From: Bacillota bacterium | Lineage (GTDB): Bacteria > Bacillota > TC1 | Reading direction: 5' to 3' | Length of the DNA: 64,000 nt | Assembly (NCBI GenBank): GCA_028683955.1 | Contig: JAQUGR010000003.1 | Location: 62,001 to 126,000 of the forward strand | The notes under the pieces: model-generated | Database searches by the model: none | What the model was told of the DNA's origin: nothing | What the model saw: only the letters and a program-made list of their open reading frames with translations | Shown: positions 19,480 to 52,372 of the stretch, piece by piece | Numbering within the stretch: position 1 is the stretch's first letter | How the letters are laid out: each line of letters begins with the position of its first letter | Program-made: the position numbers and the translations under genes

Positions 19480-20652
19480 TTACTTATCTCTGAATTTACA
19501 AGTAACATGACTTGCATCACAAAAGGGCATCATTTTAGATTCTCCACATCTGCACAATACATATCTATTTCTTGTTTCATATGTAGATCCATCACTCGAT
19601 TCTAAAGTAATACCACCCTTAACAAAAATCCCACAACTTACATGTATTTGTGGATCTTGCAATATTTCAATACTTTGAGGAAACTCTGGATCTATTTCAA
19701 AACCATCCTTTTCCCTTGCCACTAATCTACCAGTTGGACATTGGTAAGCAGCAATAATTGCCTCACTCTTCAAATCAGGATCGTCAGACATGAGTGTCAG
19801 CTCCCAAACATTCCCCTCTTCTCGATGACAAAATCTAGCATAAGCACATCTATCATCATCTAACAAATCAAGCTCTGGTCCCTCTAATACAGTAGCTCTA
19901 TCATGATATGTATCTTTAGTAGCACTTTCATCACCAATAAAACCCTCACTTACATGAGAACCATCACAAAAGGGCGGAGTCTTAGTTTTACCACATCTGC
20001 ATAAAGAATAAGTTTCCTGATCTTCATATTGTTTACCTTGAGTATAAACATACCCTTTTCCTTTAGGAGTAATTTTCTTTTCAGATAGTGGAATATTTCC
20101 GGTAACTATATAAGGTCCGTCTTTTACTATTTTAATTTTACCTTTCTTATCATAACTCATAGAAACACTCCTTTTCATAAGTTTTTCCCTATTCATTCTC
20201 ACTAACCTTGGTCGGTTATATCTTTGAGTAAGAATACAAGGAAGATTTACAATTAAAGCATACCCCAACATAATCCAAATTACAAAAGTTGGACTCCAAA
20301 ATCCAAAAATAAAAAATGGTAATATCTCTAGCCAATGCATTATTTCAGCTTTTCCAGTTTCAATAATGAAAGTATTAAGATAATCATTCTCCAAACTTTC
20401 CAGATTCTTTTTTCTAAAACCATTCTTATATGTACTAGCACCATCAGGGAGATGATGCTTCCATTTATGAATCCTTAATATTTTTTTATAAAATATATTT
20501 TCCCATTTTCTAGTTTTCAACCAAAAATTATTTGGTTGAAAGTATTTATCGTCCATTCTATTAATTATGAATGCAACTACCAATTGCATAATTGGCCAGC
20601 CAATGAAATAGGATATAATCATTAACCACTCAGGTATAAAAAATATTTGCAT
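19480..20652 (-). CDS. CrtO-like acyltransferase fused to CDGSH iron-sulfur repeats
   Basis: A 390-residue two-part protein. Residues 1-155 match the CrtO glycosyl-4,4'-diaponeurosporenoate acyltransferase family: DKYF, HKWKHHLPDGA and TQRYNRPRL are recognisable, with membrane helices near 5-30 and 105-140. Residues 175-390 hold two CDGSH [2Fe-2S] motifs, CRCGKTKTPPFCDGSH and CRCGESKMMPFCDASH, around a Cys-poor Fer4_19-like segment with RCAYARFCH. The usual CrtO protein is about 165 residues and ends where this one continues. The join is in one uninterrupted frame. The upstream gene is a CrtQ-like glycosyltransferase, so a surface glycolipid/carotenoid acyl step is suggested; the role of the redox part is unknown. 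Confidence 0.82.
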   Translation of the reverse strand: MQIFFIPEWLMIISYFIGWPIMQLVVAFIINRMDDKYFQPNNFWLKTRKWENIFYKKILRIHKWKHHLPDGASTYKNGFRKKNLESLENDYLNTFIIETGKAEIMHWLEILPFFIFGFWSPTFVIWIMLGYALIVNLPCILTQRYNRPRLVRMNREKLMKRSVSMSYDKKGKIKIVKDGPYIVTGNIPLSEKKITPKGKGYVYTQGKQYEDQETYSLCRCGKTKTPPFCDGSHVSEGFIGDESATKDTYHDRATVLEGPELDLLDDDRCAYARFCHREEGNVWELTLMSDDPDLKSEAIIAAYQCPTGRLVAREKDGFEIDPEFPQSIEILQDPQIHVSCGIFVKGGITLESSDGSTYETRNRYVLCRCGESKMMPFCDASHVTCKFRDK

Positions 20653-20661
20653 AAAGTCTAC

Positions 20662-21780
20662 CTACAACTTTCTACCTTTCCAGGTTGTTGATTTTAAAAA
20701 ATATGTTCCAATTACAGAATAAAGATAAGTAAAATGAAAAGCAAGTAAATAAATTGGATAAATTATACATGTATAAAAAGGATATGAACCTAAAGTCTTA
20801 ACAACCCTATAAATCAATACTGTACTTATACCATAAATACCTAAAAGTAGCATAAGAATATTAGTTTCTGCATTTAATAATGAATTTATAATTTCAATAG
20901 GAATTAGAGTTAAAAAGGCAATCCAACTTATAATTGCAAGAAATAACCACCACTCCATGGAAAATGAAGCAATTGCAAAATTTTTAGACCAACCTTCAAT
21001 CACTTGGTTTAAAGACTCTGAATACATCCTAAAACTTATATAATCTCCACCTAAATAAAGTTCTATTTCTACTCCTTGTGTTTTTAAATATTTACCTAAA
21101 TCATAATCTTCCACTACATCATTTTTAACTTTTTCATAACCTCCATATTTATTAAATAAATCTCTTTTTATTAATAAAAGAGGTCCATAAAAACCTTGAG
21201 TTCGTCTTTTACCAATAACACTAAGGCCCGTAGAACAAATTTGTATCATATTAAAGAAAAGTGAAAAGAACTCATATTTCTTTTTCATAGTATGGAAAGG
21301 TTGTACAGATATAGGATTCCTACTTTTTAAGTAATGTTCTACCAAAACATCTATACTGTTTTCTGTTAACCTTACATCTGAATCTATAAAAAGAAGAAGA
21401 TTACCTCTTGCCACACTTGCTCCATTTTGACAGGCCCAGGTTTTTCCCTTCCAGCCTTTTGGCAGTTTTTCAACACCAATTTTTTTCACTTCATATTTAC
21501 CATTATTTGCAAAACTTTTAATAATATTTGGTGTTGCATCTGTTGAACCATCATCAACACAGATTATTTCTTTTATCGGATAGTTTTGATTTATTAAATC
21601 ATTTAAGATATTCGGCAGATTATTTTCTTCATTTCTTGCTGGTATTATTATTGATACTGTTGGTTTTTCATTACTATTAGGCAAATTATTTATTTTTTTA
21701 ATTCTAGGAAGTTTGAAAAAAAGGAAGATAGTAGCAAAAATACCTAATATTATTGTTATATAGCTTGTTAACGGCATCAT
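20662..21780 (-). CDS. Family-2 glycosyltransferase, CrtQ-like
   Basis: A 372-residue membrane glycosyltransferase. One N-terminal helix (about 4-22) precedes a GT-A domain with SIIIPARNEENNL, CVDDGSTD, the metal-binding DSDVR, and VEDYDLGKYLK; three or four helices follow at 260-365. This layout is that of CrtQ/4,4'-diaponeurosporenoate glucosyltransferase and related ceramide/hopanoid transferases. The CrtO-like gene 9 bases downstream supports the CrtQ-like call, though no carotenoid synthase is in the window. The second of two adjacent ATG codons (21777) has better spacing from GAGG. Confidence 0.82.
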   Translation of the reverse strand: MMPLTSYITIILGIFATIFLFFKLPRIKKINNLPNSNEKPTVSIIIPARNEENNLPNILNDLINQNYPIKEIICVDDGSTDATPNIIKSFANNGKYEVKKIGVEKLPKGWKGKTWACQNGASVARGNLLLFIDSDVRLTENSIDVLVEHYLKSRNPISVQPFHTMKKKYEFFSLFFNMIQICSTGLSVIGKRRTQGFYGPLLLIKRDLFNKYGGYEKVKNDVVEDYDLGKYLKTQGVEIELYLGGDYISFRMYSESLNQVIEGWSKNFAIASFSMEWWLFLAIISWIAFLTLIPIEIINSLLNAETNILMLLLGIYGISTVLIYRVVKTLGSYPFYTCIIYPIYLLAFHFTYLYSVIGTYFLKSTTWKGRKL

Positions 21781-21870: not shown

Positions 21871-22152
21871 TTATTTCTTCTGCATTTTATTCCAATATGC
21901 TTCTGCTTCATCTTCCATTTTTTCTAAGCGTGTGTAGTAGTCTGGAAATTCATTTAAATGAGCCAAAGCTATCTTTGCAGTTAAAAGGGGGTCATTATCT
22001 GTTACATTTGTAGTAGGATCAACTTTTCCATGTTCTAATTCTACATCCATTCCCCTTCTAAATTCTTCCACATCAAATTTTTTCCAATCTATATTAAGTT
22101 TCGCACCATATTCTAATGCATTTTCTGTTGTAAATACTTTTTTTTCTGACAT
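21871..22152 (-). CDS. DUF5661 family protein
   Basis: About 93 residues, all alpha by appearance. It shows the typical family sequence FRRGMDVELEHG, a TNVTDNDPLLTAKIALAHL core and NEFPDYYTRLEKME. The family is widespread beside MsrA and other stress genes but has no known activity. The frame continues to a TTG at 22161, but the ATG at 22152 has GGAG 9 bases before it. It lies 15 bases behind msrA on the same strand and is probably cotranscribed. Confidence 0.8.
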   Translation of the reverse strand: MSEKKVFTTENALEYGAKLNIDWKKFDVEEFRRGMDVELEHGKVDPTTNVTDNDPLLTAKIALAHLNEFPDYYTRLEKMEDEAEAYWNKMQKK

Positions 22153-22167
22153 TATATTCAACTCCTT

Positions 22168-22680
22168 CTACTTATTTGTTTCTTTAGCTTTTTCAAATTT
22201 ATCTGGTCCTATATGACAATATCCACCTGGATTCTTATCCAGATACTTTTGATGATATTCTTCTGCAGTTGTATAATTACTTAAAGGTAACACTTCAACA
22301 GCTATTTTCTCTTCATATTTAGTTTGTAATTCTTTAATTGAAGCCATTATTTCATCCCTATCACTCTCATCCATATAGTATATTCCTGAACGATACTGAC
22401 TGCCTACATCATTGCCTTGTCTATTTATAGAAACAGGGTTAATCACATCATAATATAATTCAAGAATTTCAGATAAAGAAATAATTGAAGGATTATATAC
22501 AACTTTAACTCCTTCTGTATGACCAGTATTATTGTAGCAGACATCTTGATAGGTAGGATTTTTAGTCTTCCCATTCACATAACCAACTTCAGTACTTATA
22601 ACACCCTTTATTAATGATAAGTATTTTTCTGTACCCCAAAAACAACCTCCTGCTAGGTATATTTCTTTAACTTCTTCCAT
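22168..22680 (-). CDS. msrA: Peptide methionine-S-sulfoxide reductase
   Basis: A 170-residue repair enzyme for (S)-methionine sulfoxide in proteins. The catalytic motif GGCFWGTEKY is at residues 11-20 (nucleophilic Cys13), with YNNTGHTEGV, the GNDVGSQYRSGIYY segment and EEYHQKYLDKNPGGYC following. The Cys in the terminal GGYC could serve as resolving residue. No MsrB domain is fused. It follows the nitroreductase gene by 3 bases in an oxidative-stress style operon. Confidence 0.95.
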   Translation of the reverse strand: MEEVKEIYLAGGCFWGTEKYLSLIKGVISTEVGYVNGKTKNPTYQDVCYNNTGHTEGVKVVYNPSIISLSEILELYYDVINPVSINRQGNDVGSQYRSGIYYMDESDRDEIMASIKELQTKYEEKIAVEVLPLSNYTTAEEYHQKYLDKNPGGYCHIGPDKFEKAKETNK

Positions 22681-22683
22681 AAT

Positions 22684-23514
22684 TTACTCCTCTATCCAAC
22701 TAAACTTATAAGTTGTATTTTCTGTTGCTTTAATACCAGTTTCTTTTACCATAAATTCACCTTTTAGGCCACTTTCTTTTGCAGTTAGTTGAAAATGTGA
22801 AGCAGCTATACCCAGATCAATTCTTTGTATATCATAACTAAAAGCTTTACTATAGCCAGGTGTACTATATTCAAAAAAGTGGAAATCATTCCCACATCTT
22901 ACAATTCTCCAAGGTTGTTTATTTGAAGCTGAAGGTCCAAGTCTGACCATTTCTAGAACATCTCCATAAATACCTGCATCTTCTTTGGTTAATTTTGTAT
23001 TAAAATCATTATTGAAAAATAGTTGATCCCAGTCAACTCTATAATCACCCTTTGACATTTTACGCATCATCTTATCAGTTAATGATGTTTTTTTAGCAGG
23101 ATAACCTATAGGCGTAATTACTGGTATTATTTCACCAGCCTTTAAGTCAGCTTCCTTGGCAAATTGACCTCTATTAAATGTTCCACCTAACCAACATGTT
23201 CCAATTCCAATTTTAGCAAGATAAAGAATTAACTCCTCAAGCTCATATCCAAGTGCTTCTAGTGCAAAATCTCCATCTGTAAGAGTTGCTGCAATAAAGT
23301 TATTGGCATTTCTAATAACACCATAGGTACCTAACTTCTCATTACTATTTTTTTCCTTTGTATCTATAAAGGTGTATTTCAACTTAACATTCCAAGGATT
23401 TTCTAGACCTTCTATATATGATTCTATTTGTCTTTTTATTTCATCAGTTATTGATTTCTCATTATATGTTCTAACCGATTTTCTCTTTGTTATTATTTGT
23501 ATAAAACTATCCAT
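22684..23514 (-). CDS. Nitroreductase-family protein, TM1586 type
   Basis: About 276 residues with the FMN-binding start RKSVRTYN, a GIGTCWLGGTFNR motif and a second nitroreductase-like half (GPSASNKQPWRIV), matching the two-lobe TM1586-type nitroreductase family in which one chain makes the whole dimer-like fold. It likely uses FMN to reduce nitro or quinone compounds; the physiological substrate is unknown. ATG at 23514 is preceded by AAGGAG with 6-base spacing, so the longer frame to 23535 is not used. Confidence 0.83.
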   Translation of the reverse strand: MDSFIQIITKRKSVRTYNEKSITDEIKRQIESYIEGLENPWNVKLKYTFIDTKEKNSNEKLGTYGVIRNANNFIAATLTDGDFALEALGYELEELILYLAKIGIGTCWLGGTFNRGQFAKEADLKAGEIIPVITPIGYPAKKTSLTDKMMRKMSKGDYRVDWDQLFFNNDFNTKLTKEDAGIYGDVLEMVRLGPSASNKQPWRIVRCGNDFHFFEYSTPGYSKAFSYDIQRIDLGIAASHFQLTAKESGLKGEFMVKETGIKATENTTYKFSWIEE

Positions 23515-23564
23515 TAAAAGCTCCTTTTCAAACAAGTATATTGCAATATTGGACTTATAAAAAT

Positions 23565-24584: not shown

Positions 24585-26396
24585 TTAAAAATCATTAAAT
24601 TTAGGCTTACGTTTTTCAACAAAAGCAGACATACCTTCTTTAGACTCTTCGTTAGTAAAACAACTAGTCCAGTCTCTATTTTCAACTGCTAATCCGTTAT
24701 CTAAATCTATACTTCCACCCTCATTAATAGATTTCTTAGCTAATTTTACAGCTTTCATTCCATTGCTCATTATTTTCATAGCTAAATCATTAACTACTCT
24801 ATTTAGAGCTTCTGGTGCAACTACACGACTTACCAGCCCAATTCTAAAAGCTTCTTCTGCACTTATCATCTCACCTGTAAAAATCAATTCTTTAGATAAT
24901 CCTTGCCCAACAATCCTTTGTAAACGTTGAGTGCCGCCAAAACCAGGAATAAGTCCCAGTTTCACTTCAGGTTGTCCAAATTTAGCTCTACTGCTAGCGA
25001 TACGTATATCACAAGCCATAGCTAATTCATTTCCACCACCTAAAGCATAACCATTAATTGCTCCTATTACAACTTGTGGCAAGTTTTTTAATCTAGAAAA
25101 TACAGATTGCGCAAGTGAAGAAATTTCTTCACCTTCTTCTTCATTCATATCTATCATTTTGGAAATATCAGCGCCGGCTACAAAAGCTCTGCCTCCAGCA
25201 CCTCTGACTATTACTACTTGAACAGATTCATCCTTTTCTAATTTTTCTACTACTGCCTCAATTTCCAATAAGGTTTTTCTATTTAATGCATTTAAAAACC
25301 TTGGTCTGTTTATTGTAAGATAAGCTATTCTATTTTTTATATTAAAGAGTATATTTTCCATACCTAAATACTTATCAGATGAAGGAGCAACATAATCCAT
25401 TCCTTCTGATTTTGCCTTGTTTATTGCAGCTATTAGAGGTGGTAGAATTGATTTAACATCCCCAACTATACCTAAATCTGCCACATCAAATATTGGTGCA
25501 GTATCATTTTTATTTATAGCAATAATTAAACCAGAATTTTCCATTCCGGCTACATGTTGTATTGCTCCTGAAATACCACAGGCAATATATAGTTCAGGTT
25601 TAACAGTTTTACCTGTTTGTCCCACTTGTTTATCTGCATCAACCCAACCTGAATCAACAGCTGCTCTTGAACCAGCCAAATCTCCCCCAATTGTCGAAGC
25701 AAGATCACCTAGTAGCTTGAAATTTTCTGCGTTACCAACACCTCTTCCACCACTAACAATATATTTAGACTTGGTTATATCAGAATTTTTTTTCTCTTTC
25801 TTGATTACTTCCAATATTTCCACATTATTTCCAATATCACTAAAATCTACAACTACTTTCCTAACAATACCTTTTCTCGACTCATCTTTTTCCAAGGTCT
25901 GCATAACCCCAGGTCTTATTGTAGCCATTTGTGGTCTATGATTCTTACATTGAATAACAGCCATCAAATTACCTCCAAAAGCAGGTCTGGTCATATGTAA
26001 GCCCTTTGTTTCAGGATCTATATATAAAGATGTACAATCTGCAGTCAGCCCTGTTCTAATACGTGCAGATATTCGTGGTCCTAAATCTCTACCAATTGAA
26101 GTAGCTCCAATAAGTAATATTTCAGGATCATTCTCTTTAATAATCTTTGTTAAAGCTTTTGTATAGGGTTCTGTCATATATTCTTTAAGAATAGCATCAT
26201 CAACTACAATTACTTCATCTGCTCCATATTTTATTAGTTTGTTGGCTTTCTCTACTATGTCACTTCCGAGTAGTACACCAACAACTCTCTGTCCAAGGTC
26301 TTCTGCCAAAGAACGAGCTTCTCCAAGAAGTTCATAACTGACATTTTGGATGTTTCCATCTCTTTGTTCTATAAAAACATAAATATCTTTACTCAA
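24585..26396 (-). CDS. Electron transfer flavoprotein alpha fused to enoyl-CoA hydratase
   Basis: A 603-residue fusion. Residues 1-335 are EtfA, with KDIYVFIEQRDG at the start, LLIGATSIGRDLGPR, and the FAD domain signature SGGRGVG, QVGQTGKTVKPELYIACG, then INKNDTAPIFDVADLGIVGD. Residues 346-603 are a crotonase: FVAGADIS (oxyanion hole), ALGGGNELAMACD (first catalytic Glu) and FGQPEVKLGLIPGFGGTQ (second Glu). Both halves look functional. The likely start is TTG at 26396 with AAGGTG 6 bases before it; the frame is open to ATG 26426. It would couple crotonyl-CoA hydration directly to the Bcd-EtfAB electron step. Confidence 0.88.
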   Translation of the reverse strand: MSKDIYVFIEQRDGNIQNVSYELLGEARSLAEDLGQRVVGVLLGSDIVEKANKLIKYGADEVIVVDDAILKEYMTEPYTKALTKIIKENDPEILLIGATSIGRDLGPRISARIRTGLTADCTSLYIDPETKGLHMTRPAFGGNLMAVIQCKNHRPQMATIRPGVMQTLEKDESRKGIVRKVVVDFSDIGNNVEILEVIKKEKKNSDITKSKYIVSGGRGVGNAENFKLLGDLASTIGGDLAGSRAAVDSGWVDADKQVGQTGKTVKPELYIACGISGAIQHVAGMENSGLIIAINKNDTAPIFDVADLGIVGDVKSILPPLIAAINKAKSEGMDYVAPSSDKYLGMENILFNIKNRIAYLTINRPRFLNALNRKTLLEIEAVVEKLEKDESVQVVIVRGAGGRAFVAGADISKMIDMNEEEGEEISSLAQSVFSRLKNLPQVVIGAINGYALGGGNELAMACDIRIASSRAKFGQPEVKLGLIPGFGGTQRLQRIVGQGLSKELIFTGEMISAEEAFRIGLVSRVVAPEALNRVVNDLAMKIMSNGMKAVKLAKKSINEGGSIDLDNGLAVENRDWTSCFTNEESKEGMSAFVEKRKPKFNDF

Positions 26397-26406
26397 TTTA
26401 TTCACC

Positions 26407-27204
26407 TTATAAAATATGCCCTTCATTTAATCTTGCCATTATAGCTTCAACTGCTTCATTGCTTGTTAGTCCCTTAAGTAGTGTTCCTTGTGTTTTTTGT
26501 TCTTTTGTATAGGATTTTACAACCTTGGTTGGGGAGCCCTTAAGACCAATGCATCCATCATCTAGTAAATCCTTAAGGTCTTCGTAATTAAAATGTTTAA
26601 CTTCTTTCTTATCAGCTTCATAAACACCTGCAACTGTTAAATATTTTGGCTCCCCATAACCACTGATTGCGGTTAATAAACAGGGAAATTTTATCCTCAT
26701 TTTATGGTATCTATCTTCAAATTGTCTTAGTACAATTAAAGCATCCTCTTCATCATCAACATCAAACTCTTCCACATAACTAACATGAGGTATACCTAAA
26801 TGTTCTGCTATTTGTGGTCCTACTTGAGCTGTGTCTCCATCAATTGCCTGTCTTCCTGTAATTATTAAGTCATATCCTATTTTCTTTAGAGCTGCGGCTA
26901 AAATTGTAGACGTTGCTAATGTATCTGATCCTCCAAATTTACGATCAGATACAAGGTAACCTTCATCACAACCCATTGCTAAAGCTTCCTTTATGGCCAT
27001 TTCTGCTTGTTGTGGCCCCATGGATACTACTGTAACAGTACAATCCTCAATTTTATCTCGTAAGGCTAAAGCTGCTTCTATTCCAGCTTTATCATCAGGA
27101 TTTATTATGCTTCTAATACCTTTTCTTATTAAAGTATTGGTTACAGGATCTAAGGTAACTTCACTTGTATCAGGTACTTGTTTCATACATACTAATATTT
27201 TCAA
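26407..27204 (-). CDS. etfB: Electron transfer flavoprotein beta subunit
   Basis: A 265-residue EtfB with KILVCMKQVPDTSEV, the conserved NPDDKAGIEAALAL stretch, AMGCDEGYLVSDRKFGGSDT and ITGRQAIDGDTAQVGPQIAEHLG. It binds AMP or the bifurcating FAD and pairs with the EtfA half of the next gene. The gene starts with TTG at 27204, GAGGGG 7 bases upstream. It lies between the dehydrogenase and the fused EtfA, the usual order of bcd-etfBA clusters in Clostridia. Whether this ETF bifurcates electrons to ferredoxin cannot be told from sequence by eye. Confidence 0.94.
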   Translation of the reverse strand: MKILVCMKQVPDTSEVTLDPVTNTLIRKGIRSIINPDDKAGIEAALALRDKIEDCTVTVVSMGPQQAEMAIKEALAMGCDEGYLVSDRKFGGSDTLATSTILAAALKKIGYDLIITGRQAIDGDTAQVGPQIAEHLGIPHVSYVEEFDVDDEEDALIVLRQFEDRYHKMRIKFPCLLTAISGYGEPKYLTVAGVYEADKKEVKHFNYEDLKDLLDDGCIGLKGSPTKVVKSYTKEQKTQGTLLKGLTSNEAVEAIMARLNEGHIL

Positions 27205-50761: not shown

Positions 50762-52372
50762 TCATTTACCCTTTTTCAAATCATCCATAACTGCATCTGA
50801 AGCTAGTTTCCCAGTTAAAATGGATACTGGCATACCAGATGGACTAAATGTCCATTGACCAGCCTGAAAAACGTCAGGTATTGGCGTTTTAATACTCTGA
50901 GCTATTTGTGGAAATCTAGTCTCAGCTGGTAGTTTCTTATTTAAAAAAGCCCATCCTGTAATTGCACCACCTAAATTACCAGTCAATTTCTCTAACGTCA
51001 AAGGTGTAGAACATTGTATATCTAAAATATTATCTGACAATTCAGGAAATATTGAATCCTTTAAAACACCAATTATCTTATCTTCAACAAATGCCTTAAA
51101 TTCTTCATACCAGCCAATATCAAAAATATACTTAATCAACTTATAGTCGAAAAGAGTACTTATGATAAGTCCCGTTTGTCCTATCGGTGACAAAGAAATG
51201 TCACGTATTGAAGGTATTGATATTTCATAAGTAGTTAGAGAAAGATAATCTGCTACCCAATTTTTTAAGCTGCTCTTTTTCTCACTATCATTTAATTGCT
51301 TATCATTTAATATTTTTTCATATTCAGTATTTTTAACATTTCTAAGCCCTATCTTATTAGGTGTATAAAAAGAATGGCAACCTGTAATTTTTGCAAAATA
51401 ATCACTATCCAAATTCACTGACATAAAAATAGTCAGTAGAGAATCACAACCCTCATTACTTTGTATTATGTTTTTTTGCTCTTTAATATTATTTAGGTCA
51501 TCAACAATTATAGAAGAATACAAGGTGGTCATATCCGCACACCAAATAAGCTTCTTATATCTGAATTTTCTTCCATCTGAAGTTGTTACTTCCTTCTTTT
51601 TAACATCAACTTCAACCACCTGTGTTTTTGTTTCTATTTTACCATCCTTATCCTTTATAAAATCAGCTATTTTCTTTACTAATACACCAGTTCCACCTAT
51701 TGGATAACTGTAATCCAAATATAGACCAAAATAACTTAGGGCAAAAAAAGTTGGAGTATTTTTGAAGAAGTGCTGGGTAATCATATCTATTAATGCTTTG
51801 TTTTTAGTAAATCTACTTAAATATTCATTAATAGGTTCATTTAACTTTTTGACTTTACGAATGTTTATTTGATATTTAAAGAGCCAAGGTAAAAGAGTTT
51901 TGAATATATATTCTTTATCCTCCATATAGTTAACAAATAATGGATTATCAAGTCCATAGAGAACATCCATGTACTTCATAACCTTTTTTATTTCATTTAT
52001 TATATTCGAAATCCCTTCAACATCTTCTGGGAATTTTTCATTTAGTAAATAGTGATAGTCTTCTAGACTATCACTATTTATTAGTTTTACAAACTTATCT
52101 TCAATACCTATTGAAACTGGATTTTTTACAAAATCAATATTTATACCTAACTGTTTCAACATAGGAAATACTATCCCTGAATTTTCAAAGGCTCTTATAC
52201 CTCCATCATAAGTAAATCCCTTGTAATCGAATGAATTTACTAAACCTCCGAGTTTACTAGCTTTTTCTAATAATAGGGTATTATATCCATTTTTCGAAAG
52301 ATACGCTGTGCTAGTTAAGCCTGCAATACCTCCACCTACTACAACAACATCATATGAGTTATCTACCCTCAT
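50762..52372 (-). CDS. FAD-dependent oxidoreductase, phytoene-desaturase/CRTISO-like
   Basis: A 536-residue flavoprotein with VVVGGGIAGLTSTAYLSKNGYNT and EKASKLGG at the N-terminus, a mid-protein SYPIGGTGVLVKKIADFI stretch and a C-terminal AGQWTFSPSGMPVSILTGKLAS motif, as in phytoene desaturases, carotene isomerases and retinol saturases. It probably reduces, isomerises or desaturates a polyene or another lipid. It could belong with the CrtQ- and CrtO-like genes 30 kb away, but this is only a guess. Start with AGGAGG. Confidence 0.83.
   Translation of the reverse strand: MRVDNSYDVVVVGGGIAGLTSTAYLSKNGYNTLLLEKASKLGGLVNSFDYKGFTYDGGIRAFENSGIVFPMLKQLGINIDFVKNPVSIGIEDKFVKLINSDSLEDYHYLLNEKFPEDVEGISNIINEIKKVMKYMDVLYGLDNPLFVNYMEDKEYIFKTLLPWLFKYQINIRKVKKLNEPINEYLSRFTKNKALIDMITQHFFKNTPTFFALSYFGLYLDYSYPIGGTGVLVKKIADFIKDKDGKIETKTQVVEVDVKKKEVTTSDGRKFRYKKLIWCADMTTLYSSIIVDDLNNIKEQKNIIQSNEGCDSLLTIFMSVNLDSDYFAKITGCHSFYTPNKIGLRNVKNTEYEKILNDKQLNDSEKKSSLKNWVADYLSLTTYEISIPSIRDISLSPIGQTGLIISTLFDYKLIKYIFDIGWYEEFKAFVEDKIIGVLKDSIFPELSDNILDIQCSTPLTLEKLTGNLGGAITGWAFLNKKLPAETRFPQIAQSIKTPIPDVFQAGQWTFSPSGMPVSILTGKLASDAVMDDLKKGK

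Follow-up and report, generated by a model that had tools for sequence, protein, structure and literature searches.

In the 64,000-nucleotide stretch of Bacillota DNA analysed here (the window), a single gene encodes a CrtO-like acyltransferase joined to an iron-sulfur protein with two CDGSH-type motifs. This is a genuine, recent merger of two adjacent operon genes, and a single fusion event in the common ancestor of three congeneric species accounts for the data. We consider it probable that the locus as a whole is best explained by such a fusion, in which the CrtO part would acylate a glycolipid, the iron-sulfur unit would be tethered to the membrane and an internal start would probably give a further product.

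The 390-aa open reading frame contains no internal stops and both protein families lie within it, which bears out the original prediction that CrtO runs uninterrupted into a CDGSH part. In Pfam searches, the CrtO family (PF18927) matches aa 42-154 (E 1.6e-29) with 103.1 bits against a cut-off of 27.3, covering profile positions 2-121 of 123, i.e. the full-length family. The C-terminal half holds two zf-CDGSH domains (E 4e-32, 110.7 bits) with Fer4_19 between them (E 5.9e-5), the latter scoring 23.5 bits and thus slightly short of its cut-off of 24. The middle segment, predicted to be Fe-S-like, is therefore Fer4_19-like and lies just below the threshold in the window protein. Both partners are full length, since an annotated staphylococcal CrtO (plasmid NZ_CP013716) aligns to the fused protein up to aa 161, with 35% identity, and the iron-sulfur protein naturally begins at what is now aa 165. 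The features of the locus are listed in Table 1.

Table 1. Features of the fused gene and its surroundings (window positions unless a locus is named).
Feature	Position	Strand	Basis or remark
Fused gene, CrtO-like acyltransferase + CDGSH/Fer4_19/CDASH iron-sulfur protein	19480..20652	minus	390 aa, Pfam
CrtO part, aa 1-161	20170..20652	minus	Full-length PF18927; hydrophobic segments at about aa 8-32 and 107-143
AAAAGGAG, Shine-Dalgarno sequence of the iron-sulfur gene in its unfused ancestral state; codes for part of the linker	20168..20175	minus	Join alignment
Internal ATG, aa 165, candidate second start	20158..20160	minus	Counterpart, by homology, of the G001 iron-sulfur gene's start codon
Type 7 CDC-like iron-sulfur unit, aa 165-390	19483..20160	minus	Pfam, homologues
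First predicted [2Fe-2S] motif, CRCGKTKTPPFCDGSH, aa 218-233	19954..20001	minus	CDGSH
Fer4_19-like middle segment, aa 258-314	19711..19881	minus	C269, C275, C305
Second predicted [2Fe-2S] motif, CRCGESKMMPFCDASH, aa 367-382	19507..19554	minus	CDASH
GT2 glycosyltransferase, CrtQ-like	20662..21780	minus	Upstream of the fused gene, 9 bp apart
Fused nitroreductase-MsrA in congeners	L041:6568-7917, L042:9221-10576, L043:5198-6553		

The two motifs read C218-R-C220...C229-D-G-S-H233 and C367-R-C369...C378-D-A-S-H382. Each keeps the four predicted [2Fe-2S] ligands (three Cys and one His) in the pattern C-x-C...C-x3-H, so that the prediction of two CDGSH motifs stands as regards the ligands; the second is, strictly, a CDASH. 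The segment between them has the pattern C269-x5-C275...C305-P. Fer4_19 exceeds its cut-off in the fused orthologue of the congener G003 (28.7 bits) and in the homologues from G001, G038 and G044, while that of the congener G004 falls below it (20.2 bits). By its sequence, the C-terminal half thus matches a known bacterial protein type, namely the CDC subtype of the type 7 CISD proteins, in which, in excerpts of the classification, two CDGSH motifs flank DUF1271 (Lin et al. 2011, PMC3174974); we read DUF1271 as Fer4_19, which the window protein has in this position at its slightly low score. Excerpts of another study name such proteins Class II CDGSH with Fer4_19 (PMC5859297). Stand-alone relatives of 228-247 aa occur in G001, G038 and G044. 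The window genome also encodes a second CDGSH-Fer4_19-CDGSH unit (L011:250-2112, minus strand, contig G000:C6), which is fused to a glutamate synthase domain in a 620-aa protein and whose second motif ends in CNGKH.

Four genomes inform the fusion event, namely: the window species (G000), G001, G003 and G004. G003 and G004 also carry the fusion, as proteins of 391 aa (79% identity to the window protein; MAG contig JAGXHX010000022.1) and 394 aa (74% identity; MAG contig JAGXHY010000016.1), respectively, and no stop or frameshift is seen at the aligned join in any of the three species-level genomes. In G001 (WTXA01000002.1), a 158-aa CrtO and a 228-aa iron-sulfur protein are encoded by two separate genes 101 bp apart; their order is that of the fused gene, and the same GT2 gene precedes them. 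The 79%-complete genome of a fourth congener, G002, yielded neither gene. The join alignment shows that the 101-bp intergenic DNA of G001 is absent from the fused species and that the length differences between their linkers are whole codons. An assembly or sequencing error that took out a stop codon might be suspected, as the named relatives are metagenome bins. It is, however, extremely improbable and is rejected here: the fusion recurs in three species with linkers that differ in sequence and, by multiples of three, in length.

To determine how widely the arrangement occurs, we searched 399 genomes of the phylum and 400 of a second class with PF18927, and plasmids by tblastn; no CrtO-CDGSH fusion was found elsewhere. 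CrtO exceeds its cut-off in 50 genomes outside the genus (8 from the phylum sample and 42 from the second class), and its longest reading frame in these is at most 233 aa, in agreement with the prediction that CrtO is normally a stand-alone protein. No CDGSH motif was found near CrtO in any of 16 neighbourhoods, mostly of about 4 kb per side (L033-L040, L103, L105-L111). In addition, a scan of genome contigs with two peptide patterns, both from the CrtO half, gave no match outside the genus, which is weak evidence. Among the genomes searched, the CrtO-CDGSH association is limited to one genus and is thus a genus-level event. The architecture is not reported in the open-access literature that was searched. 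Its parts are familiar ones, and what is new, within the sources covered, is their combination.

The direction of the change was determined from an RpoB tree, in which G002 branches first, then G001 and then G000 together with G004; the position of G001 outside G000+G004 has a UFBoot of 83 and an SH-aLRT of 88. It should be noted that no RpoB match was obtained in the 76%-complete G003 genome, which is absent from the tree and is placed by pairwise identity only; by this measure, both its fused protein and its GT2 have their nearest counterparts in G000. Because the tree puts G001 outside and a stand-alone CrtO is the rule elsewhere, the fusion is, by parsimony, the derived state. In the ancestor of the three species, the crtO stop codon would have been lost and about 100 bp of intergenic DNA deleted.

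The start region of the ancestral iron-sulfur gene is kept, as sequence, in the window gene. The spacing there is AAAAGGAG-N7-ATG, with the ATG at aa 165, and the predicted duplex with the anti-Shine-Dalgarno sequence has an energy of -9.2 kcal/mol. Of the 440 internal ATGs of the window, 5 reach this value, which is stronger than the median for 56 ORF starts (-8.0). In G003 the internal start is weak (-5.8 kcal/mol, with 39/440 internal ATGs equally good). In G004, AAG replaces the ATG and there is no ATG, GTG or TTG at aa 152-185, so that, by standard starts, the iron-sulfur unit could be made only as part of the fusion. Since the old ribosome site and start survive in the window gene, the iron-sulfur protein may be produced in two forms, one tethered to the membrane and one free, the latter probably of about 226 aa. 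Stages of a fusion can thus be seen in the four species: the genes are still separate, or they are fused and the internal start is strong, weak or lost. Such a series would lend itself to a small study of operon-gene merging.

Among the fused species, the CrtO part and every iron-sulfur segment have a dN/dS of about 0.1, against about 0.33-1.1 for the linker of about 20 codons; these values are approximate, with dS mostly >1 and synonymous sites near saturation. Both halves are under purifying selection and the linker is much less constrained. The AlphaFold model is mediocre (pLDDT 68, pTM 0.48) and defines no reliable interdomain contact; it consists of a continuous helix to aa 165, a low-confidence linker and then the iron-sulfur unit. 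In a Foldseek search, the model matched only a type 4 CDGSH domain, and that weakly (3tbm, E 0.048); no useful match was obtained for CrtO. Residues 144-161, which follow the last helix, are positively charged; by the positive-inside rule this suggests that the iron-sulfur unit is cytosolic. It would then be tethered to the membrane through the last helix, at the cytosolic end, and would keep its own role in electron transfer or cluster carrying. We favour such a tethered but otherwise independent unit over a redox switch, because the model shows a low-confidence linker and no defined contacts between the halves.

The original suggestion of redox-controlled envelope lipid synthesis implies a functional redox switch, in which the [2Fe-2S] clusters would sense the redox state or feed electrons, and would so regulate the acyltransferase. 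Consistent with this, the fusion and its open frame have been kept in three species whose synonymous sites are near saturation, and the operon contains other redox genes, namely those for nitroreductases, a rubredoxin-like protein, MsrA and ETF. The staphylococcal crt operon is under oxygen/redox control, through AirSR, but at the level of transcription (PMC12924280). On the other hand, the linker varies and is probably flexible, the CrtO-CDGSH link was not found outside the genus in the searches above, and a simple merger of operon genes fits the fusion too. We therefore consider a redox switch unlikely. Slightly less likely still is a combined arrangement, in which the acyltransferase would be gated by or coupled to the tethered CDGSH/Fer4_19 clusters while the surviving internal site would supply a free cluster protein.

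The operon itself offers examples of ordinary gene fusion. Nitroreductase and MsrA are encoded by one gene (449-451 aa) in G001, G003 and G004 and by two genes in the window (22168-23535, minus strand), where they are split by a single in-frame TAA beside a Shine-Dalgarno sequence and ATG (GAGGAG-TAAATT-ATG). Nearby, a 613-aa protein (24585-26426, minus strand), of similar length in the congeners, combines electron-transfer flavoprotein alpha (EtfA; ETF, ETF_alpha) with an enoyl-CoA hydratase domain (ECH_1). Operon genes of this lineage thus seem to fuse and split readily, which weakens the argument from the fusion to redox control of the acyltransferase. The nitroreductase-MsrA mirror case (fused in relatives, split in the window) makes a serious rival of a near-neutral fusion through stop loss and intergenic deletion, in which the halves would be independent and no new function would arise. 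The EtfA-enoyl-CoA hydratase fusion and the internal start kept in G000 also fit this account, which is quite possible if somewhat short of an even chance. However, both halves are under strong purifying selection while fused and, in G004, the missing internal start makes tethering obligatory. As a side observation on the operon, a DUF5661 gene (21871-22161, minus strand) separates the MsrA and GT2 genes in the window species; the three congeners have no such gene at this position.

The acylated lipid is probably one other than staphyloxanthin. In staphylococci, diaponeurosporenoate receives its sugar from CrtQ and its acyl group from CrtO (PMC12924280). The window GT2 shares 32% identity with its counterpart in an annotated staphylococcal carotenoid cluster. 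Several other lineages have a GT2 gene next to CrtO, and in one of these (L036) a neighbour judged by eye is desaturase-like. A carotenoid synthase (SQS_PSY) was not found in any of the CrtO-bearing species, namely: G000 (98.4% complete), G001, G003 (incomplete) and G004; with no such synthase match in these genomes to point to a supply of glycosyl-diaponeurosporenoate, the protein does not count as a staphyloxanthin CrtO in the strict sense, and staphyloxanthin synthesis is rejected. Judging from family membership, the GT2 enzyme most likely makes a different glycolipid, which the CrtO part would then acylate. G002, which lacks CrtO, has an SQS_PSY protein (L101, G002:C62:3915-4658, E 6e-66) that its CrtO-bearing congeners lack. 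Furthermore, the window encodes a 536-aa FAD-dependent protein of the Amino_oxidase family (50762-52372, minus strand), by eye desaturase/retinol-reductase-like, in a genome without an SQS_PSY match.

To our knowledge, bacterial CDGSH proteins with Fer4_19 have no established function. The fused partner is a concrete hint to that function and provides a testable handle, namely membrane glycolipid acylation.

Compared with known systems, the N-terminal half resembles the staphyloxanthin CrtO in its full Pfam match, its 35% identity and its adjoining CrtQ-like GT2, but differs in the C-terminal iron-sulfur unit and in a genome without a carotenoid synthase match. The C-terminal half shares with the type 7 CDC proteins the order CDGSH, Fer4_19, CDGSH and the ligand residues of both motifs, but follows a complete CrtO domain within one polypeptide and has CDASH as its second motif. 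The partners given for CDGSH proteins in the excerpts of PMC3174974 and PMC5859297 are Fer4_19, Glu_synthase, ferritin-like, Rieske, Cyt-b5 and thioredoxin domains; an acyltransferase is absent from this list, and no fusion of one with CDGSH is reported in these excerpts. The closest precedent for joining a CDGSH unit to an unrelated enzyme is the CISD type 5 or CDGSH-Glu_synthase fusion, of which the L011 protein of the window genome is an example and in which CDGSH lies N-terminal to glutamate synthase, whereas in the window protein it lies C-terminal to a membrane acyltransferase.
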